This document shows, one piece after another, positions 7,844 to 24,004 of a DNA stretch of 35,703 nucleotides. Position numbers and translations under genes: made by a program. Each line of letters opens with the position of its first letter. The first letter of the stretch is position 1. The DNA is from Aneurinibacillus terranovensis DSM 18919 (GTDB lineage: Bacteria > Bacillota > Bacilli > Aneurinibacillales > Aneurinibacillaceae). The notes under the pieces are model-generated. The model was not told the origin of the DNA and searched no databases. It was given only the letters and a program-made list of their open reading frames with translations. Location: positions 1 through 35,703 of the forward strand of contig NZ_KE387175.1 in NCBI RefSeq assembly GCF_000430625.1, read 5' to 3'.

Positions 7844-8224
7844 TTAGCTTACACAAGGGGGTACCAGATTCGATCGTTTCAGCGAATAATACCGACCATC
7901 TATCATACGCACGCCTAATTCCCCACAATATTCGCGTGTGCCCTCCATCCCATACAGCAAGCATTCCGACGCCTGCAGGTTGATATCAAAATCAACATAA
8001 TGGTCAAGTCCATCATTTTTAATCATTCGTTCGGTCACATCGTAGACGCGCAGAACAAACGGTAATTCAGACAAGGGAATGGCAAAACGCTGCTCGATAG
8101 CCTCCATTTGTTGATTTTTAATATCCCAGGATGCTACCAGCGACTGTGTATCAGACCAATTAATGCGTAAATTAGGGCCATCCAAATCTTGGTTGGAGGT
8201 ACGCCTCTTAGGCTTCGCTTTCAT
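7844..8224 (-). CDS. DUF4912 domain protein
   Basis: The 126-residue product shows the DUF4912 pattern: a strand-turn with SLVASWDI, the signature FVLRVYDVTER, then DHYVDFDINLQASECLLYG and CGELGVRMIDGRYYSLKRSN ending in VPP. Such domains occur in short Firmicutes and cyanobacterial proteins and have a compact beta fold; the function is unknown. The N-terminal 20 residues are basic (MKAKPKRRTS) and probably disordered. The ribosome binding site is modest (AAAGGAACGAGAG). A TATAAT lies on the minus strand near 8297-8302, suggesting an own promoter in the 120-base gap to the upstream gene. The leader also contains a small TTCAC-CGAA-GTGAA hairpin. Confidence 0.78.
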   Translation of the reverse strand: MKAKPKRRTSNQDLDGPNLRINWSDTQSLVASWDIKNQQMEAIEQRFAIPLSELPFVLRVYDVTERMIKNDGLDHYVDFDINLQASECLLYGMEGTREYCGELGVRMIDGRYYSLKRSNLVPPCVS

Positions 8225-8344: not shown

Positions 8345-8968
8345 TTATTGGGAATGGATTATATTTTCGCCAACAACCCTGTAATCCCCCGTATTTCCTT
8401 CTTTCATAATCAGTTGAACTTTATAATCGCCAGATTGTTTAAACTGCAGTTGTTTTACATTATGCGTATAAAGAAATGCTGTTCCATTTCGCGTGGTGGA
8501 ATAACTCTGCGGATAACTAACATACTCATCCGAACCGTTCGGACCCCGCACCACGACTTTGAATACGAGCATGTCGGCCTTGGGCGCATTATCCACTTCG
8601 ACAAAGACATCGAACGAGGCAGTTTTCCCCCTGGGAACAGCCATGAAAGGGGAGTTAATCTGATAATTGCCCTCCGTGCTTCTGGCGATTTCCCCAGCTA
8701 CAATCATATTGATATTTGGTTTGGTTACCATCATCTCCCCCGTATTCTCATCGGAGTCAACAAACGCGCCCATCTTTTCAGCCGCGGTCTGGAGAGGAAT
8801 CATAGTCTTATTATTTAGTGTAATCGCGGGTGTATCTTCTTCCGTTAAACTCGCACCGTTTATCCGGACATTGGCAACAGGATATTTACCCATATATATA
8901 TTGCCCGATGCGAAAGCCACACCCGATATCGATAATGTTGCCAGTATAATGAGTGCCTTCCCCTTCAT
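8345..8968 (-). CDS. Secreted protein with copper-amine-oxidase-N-like (stalk) domain
   Basis: The 207-residue product begins with a signal peptide (MKGKALIILATLSISGVAFASG, probable cleavage after the AFA-S region). Residues about 30-90 resemble the copper amine oxidase N-terminal domain of Firmicutes exoproteins (VRINGASL..., NNKTMIPLQTAAEKMGAFVD). The remaining 110 residues form a beta-rich domain with FDVFVEVDNAPKADMLVF and KQSGDYKVQLIM, possibly Ig-like. No catalytic residues are evident, so a cell-surface or envelope role is likely. The start at 8968 is chosen because GAGGG lies seven bases upstream and the signal peptide begins there; the frame is open to 9028. The neighbours do not define its task. 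Confidence 0.75.
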   Translation of the reverse strand: MKGKALIILATLSISGVAFASGNIYMGKYPVANVRINGASLTEEDTPAITLNNKTMIPLQTAAEKMGAFVDSDENTGEMMVTKPNINMIVAGEIARSTEGNYQINSPFMAVPRGKTASFDVFVEVDNAPKADMLVFKVVVRGPNGSDEYVSYPQSYSTTRNGTAFLYTHNVKQLQFKQSGDYKVQLIMKEGNTGDYRVVGENIIHSQ

Positions 8969-9056
8969 TTCAAACCCTCGTTTCCGAATCGTTTCAGCTA
9001 TCCTACTAGATTTATACGCATGATACACATCTTAGTTTTTGTTTGGCCTTTAATTT

Positions 9057-9313: not shown

Positions 9314-9544
9314 TTACCACTTTCTAAAATTAGAAAATGAAATCCACGAGAGGAGATTCAGTTTATTTTCTACTCCCTTCCGTTTCACCATCCCAAAAAA
9401 CTCACTAAAGAAGAGTTCCCATTTTTTACCTAGTTCTTCTTTTTTTATTTGTTTTAGCTGAACCATATCCACACTTATGTTTAACGCTTGCTTAAGGTGA
9501 GCAAAGGCTTGCGTTAAATGATAATCCACATTATTCGCGTCCAT
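9314..9544 (-). CDS. Small helical protein of the ATPase operon, unknown function
   Basis: A 76-residue product starts MDANNVDYHLTQAFAHLKQAL and appears mostly helical up to about residue 60, with basic and aromatic residues (KKEELGKKWELFFSEFFGMVKRKG). It has no clear membrane segment or known motif. AGGAGGG stands seven bases before the ATG at 9544, and the gene begins 10 bases after the stop of the preceding DUF5132-like gene. Cotranscription with the ATPase is therefore likely. The last residues (NLLSWISFSNFRKW) look unlike the rest and may reflect a shifted or altered 3' end. I do not recognise the family. Confidence 0.65.
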   Translation of the reverse strand: MDANNVDYHLTQAFAHLKQALNISVDMVQLKQIKKEELGKKWELFFSEFFGMVKRKGVENKLNLLSWISFSNFRKW

Positions 9545-9554
9545 CCATACCCTC

Positions 9555-9788
9555 CTAATGCAAAATTTCCTTGTCTATCTGTTTTCTCATACGTTCAAAT
9601 TGTGCTTCAGCAAAAATGTCTTCCATTTCTTCTCTTGCCGTTTGAATTACTGTACGAATACCAGGCCATGCTTTTTCTTTGATTCTGCCTGCTGAACTCA
9701 ATGTCGTTTTTGCAATAGGCAAGAGCGCCGATGCACAGTAAATGAGTGCGGCTCCAATGATAATACCTTCCAGATTTCTGTTAATCAT
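9555..9788 (-). CDS. DUF5132-like small membrane protein
   Basis: The 77-residue product has one N-terminal hydrophobic helix (about 8-27, GIIIGAALIYCASALLPIA), followed by an amphipathic basic-then-acidic helix ending in EEMEDIFAEAQFERMRKQ. This layout fits DUF5132, a family I associate with genes next to HMA2-domain P-type ATPases. AAAGGATG precedes the ATG at 9788. The gene lies 23 bases after the ATPase stop and 10 bases before the next gene, so an operon is clear. It could be an accessory or regulatory subunit of the pump; nothing in the sequence shows this directly. Confidence 0.7.
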   Translation of the reverse strand: MINRNLEGIIIGAALIYCASALLPIAKTTLSSAGRIKEKAWPGIRTVIQTAREEMEDIFAEAQFERMRKQIDKEILH

Positions 9789-9811
9789 ATGTACACATCC
9801 TTTTTATTCAT

Positions 9812-12800
9812 TTACGCAGCTTGTAATACAGGTTTAGACGGCAATCGCCCTTCTGTCAAAGCCTTGTACAAAGGCTTTGACAGAAGGCTCACCGATCCGC
9901 TTACGAGCAATACTTGCAGTAACTGGCCCCATTGTAACGGTGCCGTATGGAATACCCGGGCTAATGCAGGAACATACAAAACGGAAAAGAGTGATATCCA
10001 GGAAATCGCAAGAGAACCAACAAAAAACTTTTCCTTTATCCAGCTAGAGAATGGCTGTCCATTTTCCTGTCTCCAGGAGAATGTTTGGATCAGCTGGCCT
10101 GCAACCAGTGTTGCAAATGCCATGGTACGAGCTGCCGGGAGTGACGCCCCCCGAGCCAGGCTTGTTGCAAAAAGGCCAAGCGAACCTAAGCCAAGAACGA
10201 TTCCCCTGATGGCCACCTTTTTGTACAAACTTTTATCAACGATATCCTGTTTTTCTGTTACTAATTCCTTATTTCCAGGATTTACGGCCAGAACTGCGGC
10301 CGGTAAAGCATCGGTTAAAAGGTTCATTAATAATATTTGAACCGGAACAAGCGGAATGGGCATCCCCCCGATGACAGCCAAACTGCTCACTAATATCTCG
10401 GCTAAATTCCCGGTTAATAAACAACCAATCGCTTTGCGGATGTTGCTTATAATGGTTCGACCCTCTTTTACACCTTCTAATATGGAACCAAAATGGTCCT
10501 CTTTTAGTACCATATCAGCCGTTTGCTTTGTTACCTCTGTCCCTGTTCTCCCCATTGCGATACCCACATTTGCCTTCTTAATCGCCGGTGCATCGTTTAC
10601 ACCGTCCCCTGTCATAGCTACGATTTGGCCGGTTTTTTGATAGGCCTGAACGATGCTCAGTTTATGTTCCGGGGTAACTCTGGCAAAAATCGAGACGTCT
10701 CCGACGATGTTTTCCAGCTGTTCATCACATAATTCGTCTAATTCACTTCCAATTAAAACGCGGTCACCCTGTTTGTACAGCCCTAACTGGCTTCCAATTG
10801 CAATGGCTGTAATCGGATGGTCTCCTGTGATCATGACAGGTTTAACGCCCAAACGGAATGTCTCTGCTATCGCATGCGCCACTTCCGATTTAGGCGGATC
10901 GATCATTCCAACCATCCCCACATAAATCAGTTGTTCGTCTTCGGCGTTCTCGTGGGTTTCATTCGTGTCTAACACCCGATAGGCGAAGCCAAGAACACGC
11001 AGCGCTTCGGCAGCAAATTGATCATTTTGCTGTAAGATGTTTGTTCTGATATCCTCTGTTAGTGGGTAAACTTTTCCGCTTTGCTGAAAAAATGAGCACT
11101 TTTTCAAAATGGCCTCAACAGAACCTTTCGCCATGATATGGCACGCATCTTCCTGCAACGTATCATTGCATAGAACACTCATTGTCCCGGTTGCAGAATC
11201 GAAAGGGATTTCCCGTTTACGGTGCCAGTGCGATAAGTTTGTAAAGCCCGCTTTTTCCGCTAACGTTAATAAAGATCCTTCCGTCGGGTCACCCTTTACG
11301 TTAAATCGTCCTTCTTCCATGGCTAGTTGGCTGTTATTGCAGAGAGCACCGATTTGAAGGATCTTATTTACCTCTTCATCACGTACATTTTCTCCGTCTT
11401 TATGAAGAAGTTTTCCTTCTGGTGAGTAACCCTCACCGGTAACATCCCATTGGTTGTTTATCGTGGCGATTTTCGTCACAGTCATTTCATTTTTTGTTAA
11501 GGTTCCGGTTTTATCAGAACATATGACACTAACCCGCCCCAATGTTTCTAATGCAGAAAGCTTTCTCATGACGGCATTGCGTCTTGACATTCTATAGATG
11601 CCGGCGCTTAATGCAATGGTAATGGTAACCGGCAAACCTTCCGGAATCGCGGAGGCGATTAAGGCTACCGATGTCGGGATCATTTGCTGTATCGTATTGC
11701 CTCTTACTAAACCTACAGCCAATACTAAAGCGCCCGCGAGGAACGCCCCCTTTACAAATACTTTACTAATCGAAGAAACCTTTTCTTGGAGAGGTGTAAT
11801 CTCTTTATTTTCGTCTTTTAACAGGGAGGTTAAATACCCAATCTCGGTATTCATTCCTGTTTCAACGACCACCCCGATTCCTTTCCCGCGGGTGATATTC
11901 GTTCCCATATACAGCATGTTTGTTCTCTCGGCAAGCCCGGTATCCGGGGGCAATGTACCGGCAGACTTCTTCACTGCCAAAGATTCACCTGTTAAAGCAG
12001 ATTCGTTAACCTCCAAATTCCAATCAGATAAAATACGCATATCAGCCGGCACTCTGTCCCCGCTCTCGATCACAACAATATCACCGGGGACTAATTGAGC
12101 TGCAGAGATCTCGGATTCTGTACCTTCACGAATGACCTTGCACATCGGCGGCTGAAATTGATTTAATTGATCAACGACTTTCTCTGCTTTCCGTTCCTGA
12201 ACTGTGCTGACAACGGCGTTAGCCAGCAGTACAGAAAGCATGGCCAGGCCATCAAAAATATCTCCCGAATAAAGAGAAACAGCACTCGTTCCCAACAAGA
12301 TCAGTGTGGTAAATTCCTTAAATTGTCTGATGAACGGAAAAACCCAATGTTCCTTCTGAGCAGGGTCTATCTGATTAAGGCCAACAGTTGACCTAATACC
12401 CGTTACGTTTTTTTCCGGTAGGCCTTTTTTGGAATCTGTCCCTAACCTCTCTTCCAATTGTTGTAATGAAAAAGTGTGCCAGTTTAGTCCATCATTTTTT
12501 TGCAGGTTACGTTTTATACGATTTGCGTCCGAACCGTTTTCTGCGGCTTTCTTTGCCCTGGCCAAAAGAACCACCTTTAACGCATCTGAAATCAGGTTGG
12601 CTAGTGGAGCAGCCATTCTGCCCGACATCATAAAAGCGGTTCCGAGCATATTCCACACCATTGTCCACTGTCGATGTTGCTCATTTACCGTCTCTATTTC
12701 CTTAGTGAACGCTAACGTCTTTTCAAAATGTTTTAGATCGGTAATAGGAATGCAGGATACATCGGTTTCACGTACTTGATCCGTTACAAAAATATATTTT

Positions 12801-14308
12801 TCTTTCAGTTTCTCAAGGTCTTCCCCGTTAAGTAATTCCCAATTATGTTCTTGTAGTTGTGTTCCCACTTGCATGGAATCTGATAAAAAATAAACCCTCA
12901 ATTGCGGATGATTTTTTTGAAGATTTTTCAAATCCTCTCCGGCTTGGGTAGAGAAGACGGGATTCTGGTATAAAAAAATCGCCAAACACTTCCCGTTTTT
13001 ACCTAAGAAATATACGTCTCCGTTTTTCTTCTCCCATCGTTTCACTTCAAGCTCGAACTCATTCCATAAAATTTTATGCTGCTGCATGAACTCTTTTGTG
13101 CCAAAACAATATGTTTGGCCGTTTACTTTACCTGTGATGCCTTTTTCTGTTTCTTTTACTTCAAATGATGTGCGCTTCGTCCTGTTAATCGCTGTAGCTT
13201 TTTCCAGAATTGAATGTTTTAAATGGTGGGAAGACTTTTCCACCAGACTGCCCGCTATACACCAAATTTTGTCTTCCTCTGTATTGCTTATGCATGATAA
13301 TGTTTCTTTTCTCTTGGAAAACAGCAGAGATGTATCCTTTACTACAACATTTTCCAAGTGAGCGATGTCGCATAACGTTTTATTTTTAGGAATAGTATGC
13401 GACTGATTCAGCTCGGCGCTTTTCCACGCATATTCTTCCGCAGCTAAACTAGGTCTCGGATTTGCGGCCAGCATTACACCCATGGTTTGCAGCGGATTTC
13501 GCGTTAACAAATACGTAAGCCCTGCTAAGCTGAACGCTAATTTTGTACTGCGGTCGGCGTATGTTTTCGTTTTATCCGATAAGTAAAGGGAAGGGTCCTT
13601 GTTTTCAATGTTGTTTTTTCTTTGCTGCCAATTTAAATACTGAATCAAACTAACGCCGGCCAATGCAATTACATTCTCCCGCACGAGAGCTAATACGAAA
13701 GCGGCCGTTCCCAAAATCAAGTCTTCATTTAATCGCCTTTCCCTTGAAAAACGTTCGAAGCCTCTTTTAAACACCGGATAACCCGTTAGGATCGATAAAA
13801 TTCCTGCCGTCTGAAACAACCCGCTGCCCATTGCTAACTGCGATTTACCCATGAGCAGCCGTTTGGCACCAATGATACCCAAGCCGGCAATCGAAGCCGT
13901 TAGTGCCAAAGAGGGAACGGAATTGTTTTTGGCTTCAGTCGGAATCGCTTCAAAAGTTTCCGGAATATCTACGGGTGGATTTGCTGCTACCGTTGCCGTA
14001 CTTGCCACTTCATCTGTAATTTGCTCATCATATTCACCGCATCCGACATGACATTTCATGAACTCTTCTTTCTCAAGCTGATGAAGAAGGTTACAGATAG
14101 AACCAGTCGTAGCTTGGGCTGGATTGTACATAATTAACACCCGGCCTGTGTTCGTACATGTATGCACACGTTGAATGTGTGATAAAGATTGCAGAGATTG
14201 TTCCAACTTTTGTGCAAAAGCACGGTTATCCTTTAATCCGTATATTTGAACCCGCAGTCTGCCTGGTAATGACCGAATCAATCTCTGTTTAAATAGAATT
14301 TGGTTCAC
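9812..14308 (-). CDS. Giant two-module P-type ATPase (CtpI-like), 1498 aa
   Basis: Residues 1-80 resemble an HMA2-type metal-domain fold (RSLPGRLRVQIYGL...GRVLIMYNP) without CxxC, followed by CHVGC (86-90). Residues about 130-600 look like a degenerate ATPase half: a membrane region, then KDTSLLF at Asp325 where DKTGTLT would be expected. Residues about 610-1498 form a complete catalytic module. LTGES is at 772-776, PEGLP at 889-893, DKTGTLT with the phospho-accepting Asp932, ITGDHP, TGDGVND at 1233-1239, and several C-terminal transmembrane helices. PEGLP and the overall order point to type II (Ca/Na/H-like) pumps; the double architecture recalls mycobacterial CtpI/CtpH. The substrate is unknown. 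The start is GTG at 14308 after a G-rich site (GAGGGGGGGG). It is first in an operon with two small genes, divergent from another small membrane protein. Confidence 0.88.
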   Translation of the reverse strand: MNQILFKQRLIRSLPGRLRVQIYGLKDNRAFAQKLEQSLQSLSHIQRVHTCTNTGRVLIMYNPAQATTGSICNLLHQLEKEEFMKCHVGCGEYDEQITDEVASTATVAANPPVDIPETFEAIPTEAKNNSVPSLALTASIAGLGIIGAKRLLMGKSQLAMGSGLFQTAGILSILTGYPVFKRGFERFSRERRLNEDLILGTAAFVLALVRENVIALAGVSLIQYLNWQQRKNNIENKDPSLYLSDKTKTYADRSTKLAFSLAGLTYLLTRNPLQTMGVMLAANPRPSLAAEEYAWKSAELNQSHTIPKNKTLCDIAHLENVVVKDTSLLFSKRKETLSCISNTEEDKIWCIAGSLVEKSSHHLKHSILEKATAINRTKRTSFEVKETEKGITGKVNGQTYCFGTKEFMQQHKILWNEFELEVKRWEKKNGDVYFLGKNGKCLAIFLYQNPVFSTQAGEDLKNLQKNHPQLRVYFLSDSMQVGTQLQEHNWELLNGEDLEKLKEKYIFVTDQVRETDVSCIPITDLKHFEKTLAFTKEIETVNEQHRQWTMVWNMLGTAFMMSGRMAAPLANLISDALKVVLLARAKKAAENGSDANRIKRNLQKNDGLNWHTFSLQQLEERLGTDSKKGLPEKNVTGIRSTVGLNQIDPAQKEHWVFPFIRQFKEFTTLILLGTSAVSLYSGDIFDGLAMLSVLLANAVVSTVQERKAEKVVDQLNQFQPPMCKVIREGTESEISAAQLVPGDIVVIESGDRVPADMRILSDWNLEVNESALTGESLAVKKSAGTLPPDTGLAERTNMLYMGTNITRGKGIGVVVETGMNTEIGYLTSLLKDENKEITPLQEKVSSISKVFVKGAFLAGALVLAVGLVRGNTIQQMIPTSVALIASAIPEGLPVTITIALSAGIYRMSRRNAVMRKLSALETLGRVSVICSDKTGTLTKNEMTVTKIATINNQWDVTGEGYSPEGKLLHKDGENVRDEEVNKILQIGALCNNSQLAMEEGRFNVKGDPTEGSLLTLAEKAGFTNLSHWHRKREIPFDSATGTMSVLCNDTLQEDACHIMAKGSVEAILKKCSFFQQSGKVYPLTEDIRTNILQQNDQFAAEALRVLGFAYRVLDTNETHENAEDEQLIYVGMVGMIDPPKSEVAHAIAETFRLGVKPVMITGDHPITAIAIGSQLGLYKQGDRVLIGSELDELCDEQLENIVGDVSIFARVTPEHKLSIVQAYQKTGQIVAMTGDGVNDAPAIKKANVGIAMGRTGTEVTKQTADMVLKEDHFGSILEGVKEGRTIISNIRKAIGCLLTGNLAEILVSSLAVIGGMPIPLVPVQILLMNLLTDALPAAVLAVNPGNKELVTEKQDIVDKSLYKKVAIRGIVLGLGSLGLFATSLARGASLPAARTMAFATLVAGQLIQTFSWRQENGQPFSSWIKEKFFVGSLAISWISLFSVLYVPALARVFHTAPLQWGQLLQVLLVSGSVSLLSKPLYKALTEGRLPSKPVLQAA

Positions 14309-14451
14309 CGTTTCACCCCCCCTCTGTTACTTTCATGATAAAGTTATTATGATGGGATCGCTGCCTTTTTATTCGCTGTCTGATTTCCTAATGCATAACA
14401 ATTACAAGTTAGGAAAAAGTAAACGATATACTAAAATATGGAGGGAAATTT

Positions 14452-14793
14452 ATGATTAAAAAATTGCTTCCTAAATCCCCGCTTGGTATCGCCTTTTTTA
14501 CAATCACAGCTATCCTTACTTTATCACCAGAAGCTAGACGATTAGTCAGGACAACCGCCGTAAAAGGCCTTGCTTCCATCATGTCACTTACAGATCAGGT
14601 AAAGGGGATGACGTCGAACACGCAAAATTTGCTGCCGGCTTCTTCCGAATCTAATCCTGTTTTTACATACGACACAAACGTAGAACCTGCGGAATATACA
14701 GAAAAAAATATGGACTCAGGCAGTGCGTTTAATGTGTTAAACGACAATTATTTACAAAGCCAATTTACAGAGATAAAAAATGAACTTCATTAA
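14452..14793 (+). CDS. Small membrane protein divergent from the ATPase operon
   Basis: A 113-residue protein with one N-terminal hydrophobic helix (about 9-24, SPLGIAFFTITAILTLSP), a basic amphipathic stretch (EARRLVRTTAVKGLASIMSL) and a polar C-terminal half of about 60 residues that looks disordered. The first 50 residues have the same plan as the DUF5132-like protein at 9555-9788, so the two may be distant paralogues flanking the pump gene. GGAGGGA lies seven bases before the ATG. The 143-base divergent region would hold promoters for both directions. I do not recognise a named family. Confidence 0.7.
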   Translation: MIKKLLPKSPLGIAFFTITAILTLSPEARRLVRTTAVKGLASIMSLTDQVKGMTSNTQNLLPASSESNPVFTYDTNVEPAEYTEKNMDSGSAFNVLNDNYLQSQFTEIKNELH

Positions 14794-14794
14794 T

Positions 14795-14844
14795 AAGGAA
14801 AAAGACCGGTCGCGCAAACACATCGCGATCCGGTCTTTTTCCTT
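14795..14844. terminator. Bidirectional terminator
   Basis: AAGGAAAAAGACCGG (14795-14809) and CCGGTCTTTTTCCTT (14830-14844) form a perfect 15-bp stem with a further TCGCG...CGCGA pairing in the loop. It separates two convergent genes. Confidence 0.9.
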
Positions 14845-15140
14845 TAACGTTTAAACATTATGCTGCCTGCTGTCGTCCCCACCGTACGCCCGACGCGGTC
14901 ACCAATCACTCCTCCAATCATAGCCCCGGCCACCGTGCCGATACCCGGCATAACCGCAGAACCCAGCATGGCGCCGTATTCCACACCCGCCATCACGCCG
15001 ACTGCACTTGTCACATTGCATGTTGTGTTTGCCGCATATTCACCCCTGTTGATAACCCCGTTTGAATATGCCCTCGAATCATTAATTTGAGATAATCCTC
15101 CTGAAACGACACCAGCCCAAAATGAATTTCCTCGAAACAT
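14844..15140 (-). CDS. Glycine-zipper membrane protein
   Basis: The 98-residue product is small-residue rich. From about residue 42 it contains glycine-zipper repeats (VGVMAGVEYGAMLGSAVMPG, then GTVAGAMIGGVIGDRVGRTVG) able to form two packed membrane helices. The N-terminal 40 residues are polar (MFRGNSFWAGVVSGGLSQ). Such proteins are found in envelopes and sometimes resemble bacteriocin-like peptides, but no processing or immunity gene is next to it, so a structural role is more likely. AAAGGAGGT precedes the ATG at 15140; the open frame upstream to 15230 lacks such a site. Confidence 0.75.
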   Translation of the reverse strand: MFRGNSFWAGVVSGGLSQINDSRAYSNGVINRGEYAANTTCNVTSAVGVMAGVEYGAMLGSAVMPGIGTVAGAMIGGVIGDRVGRTVGTTAGSIMFKR

Positions 15141-21654: not shown

Positions 21655-22431
21655 TTAACTTACCTGATGCTCCAGGCGAAGCTTGTCCGCAACCATGGCG
21701 ATAAATTCACTATTTGTCGGCTTGGCTTTGCTGTTGCTTACTGTATACCCGAACAGTACGCTGATGGAGTCCATATTGCCGCGGCTCCAGGCTACTTCAA
21801 TCGCGTGCCGGATCGCACGCTCGACGCGGCTGGCCGTCGTATTAAATTTTTTGGCAATTTCCGGATACAGAATTTTCGTTATCGAACCTAACAGTTCAAT
21901 ATCGTTATAAACCATCGTGATCGCTTCCCGTAAGTATAAATAGCCTTTAATATGTGCCGGAACACCGATTTCATGAATGATATTCGTGATGTTCTGGTCA
22001 AGATTCTTTCCTTTAGGCGGCAGGGAAGGCGTGCGCAGATTTCGTACTGGAAGGATTGAACCGGCTACCTGGCGCAAGCGGTTTGTAAGAACTTCCATAT
22101 CAAACGGCTTCAAAATATAATACGACGCGCCCAGTTCAACCGCCTTTTTCGTAATCTCTTCCTGGCCGAATGCCGTAAGCATAATAATTTTTGGCATGAC
22201 CGGAAGTTCCATGCCACGAATGTGTTCCAAAACCGCCAGACCATCCAGATGAGGCATGATGATATCCAAAATCAAAACATCAGGCACCGTATCTTCAAGA
22301 AGTTTCAACACATCATTGCCGTTATAGGCAACGCCCATAACCTCTATATCATCCTGTTCATTTAAATATTCTCTTAGCAATTCTGTAAATTCTCGGTTGT
22401 CGTCAGCAAGCATGACACGGATTTTATTCAA
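21655..22431 (-). CDS. spo0A: Sporulation transcription factor Spo0A
   Basis: This 258-residue response regulator is the master regulator of sporulation. The receiver domain (1-120) has Asp10, Asp11, the phospho-acceptor Asp56 (LILDIIMP), Thr86 and Lys108 (ILKPFD). After a linker, the C-terminal DNA-binding domain carries the strongly conserved [39 protein letters not shown] and [11 protein letters not shown], ending in the NSEFIAM helix that contacts RNA polymerase. The start is TTG at 22431, with AAGGAG about nine bases upstream; no ATG is nearby in frame. B. subtilis spo0A also uses a non-ATG start. The neighbouring spoIVB and recN reproduce the conserved order. Confidence 0.97.
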
Positions 22432-22501
22432 GTCATTTCGCTCCTTTTTTCTTACATCTATTTTTACTATCTAATTCTTCGCAAATGTCCCGCATTGTTA
22501 T

Positions 22502-22572
22502 TTCGACGTTAAGCATACATATCCTTCAATAAAATCGGTAATTCCTTTCGACTGATCAGGCTAAAATTCGAC
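22502..22572 (-). promoter_or_regulatory. spo0A control region: three 0A-box-like sites and sigma-H-like promoter
   Basis: GTCGAA occurs three times on the minus strand (22502-22507, 22547-22552, 22567-22572). Each matches six of seven bases of the 0A box TGTCGAA, and the last two are exactly 20 bases apart. Overlapping the middle site is AAAGGAATT, 12 bases, then GAAGGA (about 22522-22547), close to the sigma-H pattern AGGAWWW-N12-GAAT. This arrangement fits the Spo0A-autoregulated, sigma-H-dependent promoter known for B. subtilis spo0A. Confidence 0.55.
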
Positions 22573-22637
22573 TTTACCGCTGTCGGTGAGGTTCGTTGCA
22601 ATTATTTATGTAAGCATGTTATGCTCTCTTATGCGGA

Positions 22638-22661
22638 TGAGAAAAACTCGCGGGCGTTGCC
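22638..22661. repeat. 24-base dispersed repeat, copy 1
   Basis: A 24-base sequence starting TGAGAAAAACTCGCGG is identical here and at 35605-35628. This copy continues into a CGTTGC-CGCAACG palindrome and lies between spoIVB and spo0A. Confidence 0.7.
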
Positions 22662-22678
22662 GCAACGGTAAACAAAAA

Positions 22679-22710
22679 AAAAACTCAGGGCTAACTTGCC
22701 TTGAGTTTTT
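22679..22710 (-). terminator. Terminator overlapping the 3' end of spoIVB
   Basis: AAAAACTCAGGG (22679-22690) pairs with CCTTGAGTTTTT (22699-22710), one G-T pair. On the minus strand the first arm is the last spoIVB codons, the stop codon (22691-22693) lies in the loop, and a run of ten T follows. Confidence 0.8.
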
Positions 22711-24004
22711 CTTCATTCCGAATATCGATTCCTGCATCTTTTAGCATCCACTCGATGAATGTTCCGTAACCGGAGGTGGGATCATTGACGAAAACGTGAG
22801 TGACGGCACCAACCAGTTTACCATTTTGAATAATAGGGCTCCCGCTCATTCCCTGAACGATGCCACCCGTTTTTTCAAGCAGGCGCGGGTCTGTAACTTT
22901 CAGAATCAGCCCTTTTGTCGCAGGAAATTTCTGCTGGATGACGTTAACAATTTGGATTTTAAACGTGTCGACTTTCTGACCGTCCACAACCGTATAAATT
23001 TCAGCCGGGCCAGGTTTTACCTCTTCACTGAGAGCTACCGGTATTGGCTTTGTTGCAACCGTGTTCTTCGGCAGCTTATCCATCTGACCAAAAATGCCGA
23101 ATGGCGTGTTTTTTTCAATGTTCCCTAACTTCACGCGTTCATTAATAAAGGTTGCAAACTTTTCACCCGGTGTACCGGTTGTTCCTCTTTCAATGGATGT
23201 TACACTTGACTGAACCACGTGGCCTTCTCCCACTGTTATCGGTTTCCCTGTGTCCATATCCGATATGACATGGCCAAGAGCTCCATATTTTTGCAGCTTT
23301 GGCTCGTAAAAAGTAAGTGTGCCTACTCCTGCCGCAGAATCGCGAATATACAGACCCATACGATATTTCTTATCTTTGTCATCCAATGCCGGCGTAAGCT
23401 GCATCGCAAGCTTTTGTTTGCCGCGCAGAATTTCCAAATCTACAGGTTTTCCTTTTTTTCCCGAGTCGTTAACGAGCTTGCCCACTTCATCCATATCGCT
23501 GATGTCTTCGCCATTTACCTTGAGGATCATATCGCCTTTTTTAATATTGGCAGCCTCTCCGGGAGAAACCTTTTTCCCCTTATTATCGACTAGATGATGA
23601 CCGACCACCAGAACGCCAACGGTCTGCAGTTGAACACCAATCGACTGACCGCCCGGAATGACTTTCAGCTCAGGAAGAACCTTCACATCTACCGTTTTAA
23701 GCGGTATACTTCCAACCTTCAGCATAAGCGTTGCTTCGCCTGGTTTACCTGGTTGAATGGTAATCGGATTCTGTAAATTAATCGTTTCGCGGGCGGCATT
23801 GCCAAGCTTAACCACTTCAGGATTACTCGTCTCAAGTGTAGCTGTTACGGGAGCCGTAAGCGACAGTTTAGTGAGCGTACCTTGAAACACCCGGAGCTTA
23901 TTCGGAAATGAGGCAAACTGTTGAAAAGGGGTTGAAGAGAAAGTGAATAGAGCGAGTACAATCAAGATATAACCAAACCATGTCTTTTTCTTCTGTTTAT
24001 TCAA
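22691..24004 (-). CDS. spoIVB: SpoIVB sporulation signalling protease
   Basis: The 437-residue SA-family serine protease is made in the forespore and cleaves SpoIVFA to trigger pro-sigma-K processing in the mother cell. One N-terminal membrane/signal segment (about 8-25) is followed by a PDZ domain (about 125-210, [20 protein letters not shown]). The peptidase domain ends in [20 protein letters not shown], where Ser387 is the expected nucleophile. Length matches B. subtilis SpoIVB (about 426). The start is TTG at 24004, after GGAGCG with a long spacing; no better codon is seen. It lies between recN and spo0A as in B. subtilis. Confidence 0.95.

Follow-up and report, generated by a model that had tools for sequence, protein, structure and literature searches.

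Gene content of the locus

We analysed a 35,703 nt stretch of contig NZ_KE387175.1 from Aneurinibacillus terranovensis DSM 18919, which is called the window in the following; coordinates refer to the window unless another locus is named. In particular, we examined a locus that encodes a P-type ATPase of double length together with several small proteins. An earlier note on this DNA had reported the ATPase and three small helper genes, all four of which were found at the reported positions, and had overlooked a glycine-zipper gene, ppk1, a promoter and the loss of the A domain from the ATPase. The ATPase gene begins with a GTG codon that is preceded by a strong ribosome-binding site. The features of the locus are (aa, amino acids):

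9314..9544, minus strand: helper C, 76 aa, soluble and helical, with VDYHLxQAFAHLxxAL...NLLSWISF, outside all Pfam families
9555..9788, minus strand: helper B, 77 aa, one transmembrane helix and an acidic helix EExEDIxAEAxFER, DUF5132-like
9812..14308, minus strand: double P-type ATPase, 1498 aa, GTG start
14054..14308, minus strand: HMA_2 head of the ATPase, residues ~1-85
12509..14053, minus strand: dead first half, residues ~86-600, P1B-type membrane helices and a remnant of the P/N-domain
13319..13339, minus strand: KDTSLLF at the DKTGTLT position of the first half, residues 324-330
9815..12508, minus strand: second half, predicted type IIA Ca2+ ATPase, residues 601-1498, every catalytic motif present
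11495..11515, minus strand: DKTGTLT phosphorylation motif of the second half, residues 932-938
14345..14374, minus strand: sigma-G-like (forespore) promoter GAATA-N18-CATAATA, a pattern match 36 nt before the ATPase start
14452..14793, plus strand (divergent): helper A, 113 aa, small membrane protein, PLGxAxTAAAxxLxxSPEARKxTRKxxVKG, distantly PacL/DUF6110-like
14844..15140, minus strand: glycine-zipper membrane protein of 98 aa, beginning with MFRGNSFWAG after AGGAGG, predicted to form three helices
15285..17420, minus strand: ppk1, polyphosphate kinase 1, 711 aa

A dead P1B-type ATPase as first half

Pfam placed an HMA_2 domain at residues 13-66 (E 9.9e-8, above the Pfam cut-off), in agreement with the HMA2-like head proposed earlier, and found no P-type domain in residues 90-600. 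The proposal that this half is catalytically dead held up as well: KDTSLLF replaces DKTGTLT in the window, and neither DKTG nor TGES nor GDGxND was seen in the 26 homologues. We call the half dead because all three motifs were lost together and not on account of the phospho-aspartate residue alone, whose position is occupied by E in 15 of the 26 first halves, by D in 8, by A in 2 and by K in the window. The CPC motif of M4 is replaced by ANP in all 26 homologues, and none of the 26 HMA_2 heads carries a CxxC.

When a profile built from these homologues was compared with the PDB, only P1B pumps and HMA domains were matched (ATP7B 1e-22, CopA 1e-20, ZntA 3e-7). A predicted model of the first half, with a mean predicted local distance difference test score (pLDDT) of 76 that is near 90 in the cytosolic domain and poor in the membrane part, has only a short linker in place of the A domain; the model as well as an alignment with live relatives shows that the A domain is deleted entirely. 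Structure comparison returned ZntA/CopA as the best Foldseek matches, and the top VIA-align matches were also P1B pumps. These motifs and profiles identify the first half as a dead ATPase of the P1B type, more precisely P1B6-like, that has lost its A domain.

The affiliation with P1B6-like pumps comes from live relatives in Clostridia, which possess an HMA_2 head, CPC in M4, TGES, DKTGT and an HN motif in M6, and thus bear both motifs of this group (CPC and the HN motif in TM6; PMC9374683). Alignments allowed us to arrange the homologues as a degeneration series that leads from such live pumps to forms that keep DKTGT and have no TGES (L098, L100, L107), further to a double ATPase whose first half still contains DKTGT and GDGIND (L102), and ends with the Bacillales form in which the entire A domain is gone. 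G007 and the members of the Bacillus clade have a trimmed N/P domain as well, such that their first half is shorter by about 100 residues (511-540 aa in the Bacillus clade). The head and the membrane helices are retained in all first halves. Two clostridial loci (L098 4597-9278, L099 1261-5930) contain a live CPC-type HMA2 P1B ATPase beside a degenerate one with DKTGT but no TGES; the pairing of live and degenerate P-type ATPases may thus be wider than the system described here.

The second half resembles a calcium pump

For the second half, Pfam recognised a complete type II ATPase at residues 610-1475. DKTGT, TGES, TGD and GDGVND are all present, which agrees with the earlier view of an active type II half as far as motifs can tell, and the full-length domain order is that of the type IIA (P2A) ATPases. 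The best NCBIfam model for the protein was the PMR1-type calcium ATPase (E 2e-197, below the equivalog cut-off). The closest solved relatives of the second half are SPCA1 and the Listeria pump LMCA1, to which it aligned over nearly the full length with E values of ~1e-157 to 1e-160.

The window protein keeps IPEGLP in M4, GNLAE in M5 and NLLTD in M6. Among 53 double ATPases PEGLP is found in all, and GNLAE, NLLTD and a Q in M8 (E in some) in most. We take these M4, M5, M6 and M8 motifs to be the calcium ligands of SERCA, with E908 replaced by Q in most cases. The second half therefore looks like a working calcium pump. The earlier note had stated that no transport substrate is known. This can be corrected in so far as Ca2+ is predicted because the calcium-site motifs are retained, and Mn2+ is a possible alternative because SPCA pumps transport both ions.

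The gene set is conserved

A contig scan with the first-half profile provided 25 named loci of Bacillota, which span Aneurinibacillus, Brevibacillus, Ammoniphilus, Paenibacillus, Thermoactinomycetaceae, Tumebacillus, Bacillus, Neobacillus, Priestia and others. Searches with small-protein profiles detected helpers A and B at every one of these loci, helper C at 23, the glycine-zipper protein at 20 and PPK1 at 11. Helper A is usually located immediately upstream in divergent orientation, and the ATPase gene is followed by the genes of helper B, which is directly downstream in most of the 25 loci, and helper C; order and orientation are constant in most loci. The linkage persists at 23-58% protein identity across many families, through relocation of helpers (L055, L063) and through gene splits.

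Within 398 genomes of the class, helper A was found in 39 and the first half in 37, with both present in 31, helper A only in 8 and the first half only in 6. Helper A adjoins the first half in 31 of the 39 genomes that contain it. A Fisher test of the co-occurrence gave 9e-33, a value that is not corrected for shared ancestry. According to the earlier note, its idea of a joint system would have to be given up if the small genes showed no conserved linkage to this ATPase type in other genomes. The opposite was found, because the helpers recur beside the ATPase (A and B at 25/25 loci) and helper A and the first half co-occur. The proposal of an undescribed multi-subunit transporter thus fits the conserved linkage, but the kinds of components, i.e. 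CtpH/CtpI-type double ATPases and PacL/DUF6110-type scaffolds, have already been described.

Clustering of all flanking open reading frames of at least 90 aa at 36 loci revealed two recurrent families, PPK1 (15/36) and an MntP-type protein (9/36), and no other clearly recurrent family. The MntP-type gene encodes a putative manganese efflux protein and is located near the ATPase, e.g. at L055 14745-15470, which provides a hint at Mn2+. A search for relatives outside Bacillota by tblastn against plasmids yielded nothing useful.

Some further observations concern individual loci. Homologues of helper A, some of them weak, occur without a detectable first half at L146 (9889-10227), L156 (9187-9540), L163, L165, L168, L170 and L173. 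Broken frames were seen in the ATPase gene of L060 (9968-14238) and in ppk1 of L064 (6232-8354) and L044 (17049-19127), due to either a frameshift or a sequencing error. The downstream neighbours in the window, a Cu_amine_oxidN1-domain protein (8345-9028) and a DUF4912 protein (7844-8224), do not recur at other loci.

Relationships of the helper proteins

The earlier note had held that two of the small proteins share the same plan. Helpers A and B are indeed homologous (hhalign 93.5%, E 2e-7), but the hydrophobic stretch of helper A is only borderline for a transmembrane helix, with 13 of 26 members above the threshold and the window copy below it. An N-terminal transmembrane helix followed by an acidic Ala/Glu-rich helix, encoded beside a P-type ATPase, is thus clear for helper B and borderline for helper A. 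A likeness of helper B to DUF5132 (Pfam PF17195) is seen in the family, of which 14 of 26 members match (E<=1, best 3.1e-5); the window protein itself remains below the cut-off (E 0.08). Only three matches to DUF5132 were obtained in 299 genomes of the phylum; each lies next to an HMA2 ATPase and scores below the cut-off.

Comparisons with DUF6110 gave hhalign 65% (E 6e-5) for helper A and 31% for helper B. One clostridial relative of helper B, encoded next to an HMA2 ATPase, has matches to DUF5132 as well as to DUF6110 (DUF6110 at 0.0087, below the cut-off), and one relative matches DUF1490 at 0.005, likewise below the cut-off. DUF1490 (PacL) proteins and the related DUF6110 proteins are one-helix partners of P1B6-like and P1B6 pumps, and DUF6110 proteins lack a C-terminal metal-binding motif (PMC9374683). 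In the simplest history, a P1B6-like pump that worked with PacL-like partners would have lost its catalytic activity and become the carrier of these partners for a calcium pump.

No Pfam family was found for helpers A and C. In profile comparisons helper C was unrelated to helper A, and helper B was unrelated to the zipper protein. The zipper family matches Gly-zipper_Omp in 21/21 members; a fold search with it returned no significant match, the top entry being SlyB with an E value of 4.6, which is not evidence.

Split, fused and multiple ATPases

In four genomes (L037, L145, L148, L169) a gene of its own, ~640 aa long, encodes the dead first half and is clustered with the helpers. The same clusters contain live HMA2-headed type II ATPases as well as one type II ATPase without DKTG and GDGxND, resulting in rows of three or four P-type ATPases (L037 4344-16320, L145 35-12449, L148 2-12141, L169 6237-19177). 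In Clostridia, the first-half homologue and an HMA2-headed type II ATPase are either separate neighbours (L100, L105, L107, L108) or fused (L101-L104). Trees interleave both forms, e.g. the fused L101 stands beside the separate L105 with full support; these were quick trees that carry a long-branch warning. From this interleaving the two ATPases were probably joined or parted more than once.

A truncated first half (~450-465 aa) is present together with helpers A and B at L171 (7638-10220) and L172 (7786-10320), where no pump gene was found within 10 kb. This suggests that first half and helpers form a module of their own. Both loci belong to one spore-forming family, in which the first half is also found in G626, G634, G714, G723, G732 and G759.

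A putative forespore promoter and restriction to spore formers

Using SpoIVB as marker of spore formers, we found it in all 37 genomes that contain the first half, compared to a base rate of 173/240 in the class. In the window, spo0A and spoIVB are located at 21655-24004, ~4-7 kb past ppk1.

Promoters of the forespore factor sigma-G have the consensus GHATR-N17/18-CATWHTA. The 143 bp that separate helper A from the ATPase contain GAATA-N18-CATAATA, a 12/12 match that faces the ATPase. It is the only perfect match in the whole window, where 0.2 are expected. Across 40 ATPase loci, the pattern was found with at least 11/12 matching positions at 19, compared to 1.1 expected from dinucleotide shuffles (z 9.8). 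As a control, 193 other genes of the same loci gave 3 matches with 6.0 expected. Weaker signals were obtained for a sigma-F pattern at helper A (z 3.1) and for sigma-G at the zipper gene (z 3.0). Sigma-A and sigma-K patterns were not enriched at the 40 ATPase loci, a generic sigma-70 scan revealed no excess, and a search for conserved regulator-type words in the intergenic region shared by helper A and the ATPase returned only A/T-rich words. The earlier statement that no regulator is known can thus be amended: expression from a sigma-G-like forespore promoter is predicted.

Proposed role and its alternatives

The sequences show how the ATPase is built, that its first half is dead, that the gene set is conserved, that a promoter pattern recurs and that the system is confined to spore formers; from this we infer a substrate, an assembly, a use of the promoter, a site and a role as follows. 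The locus would encode a scaffolded forespore Ca2+ (or Mn2+) pump in which the dead P1B6-like half and the PacL-like subunits serve as scaffold or regulator; we assign this reading a probability of about one half. The second half would be the motor, a pump of type IIA by which Ca2+ (or Mn2+) is exported from the cytosol in a phospho-aspartate cycle. The first half, presumably descended from a P1B6-like metal ATPase with PacL/DUF6110-type one-helix partners, would now act as an integral scaffold or regulatory subunit and recruit helpers A, B and C and the zipper protein to the calcium pump. The complex would assemble in the forespore membrane under sigma-G control and could lower free Ca2+ in the spore compartment, e.g. 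before dipicolinate arrives; alternatively it might clear Ca2+ at rehydration, germination and outgrowth. Polyphosphate may act as a cation buffer alongside the pump.

Several points weigh against this reading. Export of Ca2+ by a P-type pump in the inner forespore membrane runs opposite to the net Ca2+ accumulation of spores, and for this reason the purpose of such a pump is not obvious. Besides the two timings given above, pumping into a polyphosphate-containing compartment would be a third way round this problem, at which the ppk1 linkage hints. The promoter statistics count related loci as independent, and spoIVB of the window, used as positive control for the pattern, gave no clear result. 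The relationship of the helpers to PacL is weak by sequence, a His/Asp metal-binding tail of the DUF1490 type is absent from the alignments of helpers A and B, and L171 and L172 keep the dead half and the helpers with no pump nearby.

Instead of a scaffold, the dead half might be an autoinhibitory extension, comparable to those of plant ACA and animal PMCA pumps, of an ordinary single-protein Ca2+ exporter, with the small proteins as phospholamban-like regulators. SERCA has well-known one-helix regulators, the second half is complete without the first, and single HMA2-headed type II ATPases exist that lack a fused first half. We consider this explanation unlikely, given that a separate gene for the first half is also found with the helpers, in one lineage even with no pump gene nearby, that this half retains P1B membrane helices which a soluble autoinhibitor does not need, and that the Bacillus clade can do without its N/P domain. 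The name of the HMA_2 domain, the P1B ancestry of the first half and the PacL-like partners would suit efflux of heavy metals (Cu, Zn, Cd), with the head binding the metal and the helpers acting as metallochaperones as proposed for PacL1. This is made very improbable by the absence of CxxC from all 26 heads, the change of CPC to ANP, the tail-less helpers and the calcium-site motifs of the second half. We give hardly any weight to the view that the small genes are mere neighbours by common descent without a functional tie to the pump: many loci are related and gene order can persist by descent, but the linkage has survived sequence divergence, helper relocation and gene splits, and helper A and the first half occur together in most genomes that contain either.

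A rather doubtful alternative to the scaffolded forespore pump is a membrane-bounded store of cations and polyphosphate, a counterpart of acidocalcisomes and ferrosomes, which the pump would fill with Ca2+ or Mn2+, the small proteins and the zipper protein would shape, and PPK1 would supply with polyphosphate as counter-ion. Such a store would resolve the direction problem of a forespore pump that clears the cytosol, and the presence of several small hydrophobic partners is in line with it. PPK1 adjoins the locus in several arrangements, so that the linkage was kept through rearrangements. The second double ATPase of G047 (L038 10693-13549, with the zipper gene only) adjoins genes that by eye resemble PPX/GppA and a PPK2/dTMP-kinase-like protein. 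The requirement of ferrosome formation for the membrane protein FezA and the transporter FezB (PMC12574912) points in the same direction. On the other hand, at more than half of the loci PPK1 was not found within ~10 kb, none of the proteins was recognised as vesicle-forming, the fold search with the zipper protein had no significant match, and there is no direct sign of a compartment. A speculative combination, which we regard as improbable, is that the dead P1B6-like ATPase became an obligate subunit of the live calcium ATPase and that this composite pump, together with the PacL-like and zipper proteins and the polyphosphate kinase, builds a Ca- or Mn-polyphosphate compartment specific to the forespore, a spore-stage organelle.

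Significance and comparison with known systems

P-type ATPases are usually self-sufficient or work with one small regulator. A dead ATPase of one class that is fused to, or located beside, a live one of another class provides a natural experiment on how a pump becomes a subunit. Double-length orphan P-type ATPases of the CtpH/CtpI kind gain a testable biology, and scaffolding of the PacL type may reach beyond heavy-metal pumps. The locus also supplies a candidate for a pump that handles calcium or manganese in the spores of bacteria, whose calcium economy is poorly understood. In the literature searched, with most subscription journals outside, no paper on this gene set and no mention of DUF5132 was found, and searches by domain names and for dead P-type ATPases returned irrelevant papers only.

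LMCA1 and the PMR1/SPCA pumps resemble the second half, with DKTGT and the M4/M6 calcium motifs, but lack the first half, the HMA_2 head and the small partners. The motifs IPEGL and NLLTD of the window protein, which correspond to IPEAL and NLVND in LMCA1, come closer to those of SERCA. Ferrosome fez clusters and acidocalcisomes share with the locus a P-type ATPase with small membrane proteins and, at the window locus, polyphosphate synthesis; in contrast to them, the locus has no link to iron and no sign of a compartment, and no FezC-like cytochrome was seen.

PacL proteins scaffold their pumps in membrane patches or platforms (PMC9374683, PMC13043812). Like PacL1-3 with CtpC, CtpG and CtpV (DUF1490) and like the DUF6110 proteins of P1B6 pumps, the helpers combine one helix with an acidic Ala/Glu-rich cytoplasmic stretch and are encoded beside a P-type ATPase. 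Unlike in the PacL systems, the dead P1B partner in the window forms one protein with a pump of the calcium type, and two paralogous helpers without metal-binding tail, whose similarity is weak (hhalign 65% and 31%), are accompanied by two unrelated proteins. The ATPase itself resembles CtpH and CtpI of Mycobacterium tuberculosis (FUPA24, TC 3.A.3.24), which are defined by double length, functional motifs in the C-terminal half only and PEGL/PEGM in M4 (PMC3573892), and which are isolated in the P-type ATPase tree and have no known function (PMC10654040). The window ATPase agrees with this definition in its double length and in functional motifs confined to the C-terminal half, a likeness of architecture. 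In the passages covered, a helper set, a PPK1 linkage or a spore promoter is not reported for CtpH/CtpI. Since double-length P-type ATPases and PacL-type helpers are both on record, the kinds of components are known; a multi-part pump of this composition was not found in the literature searched.

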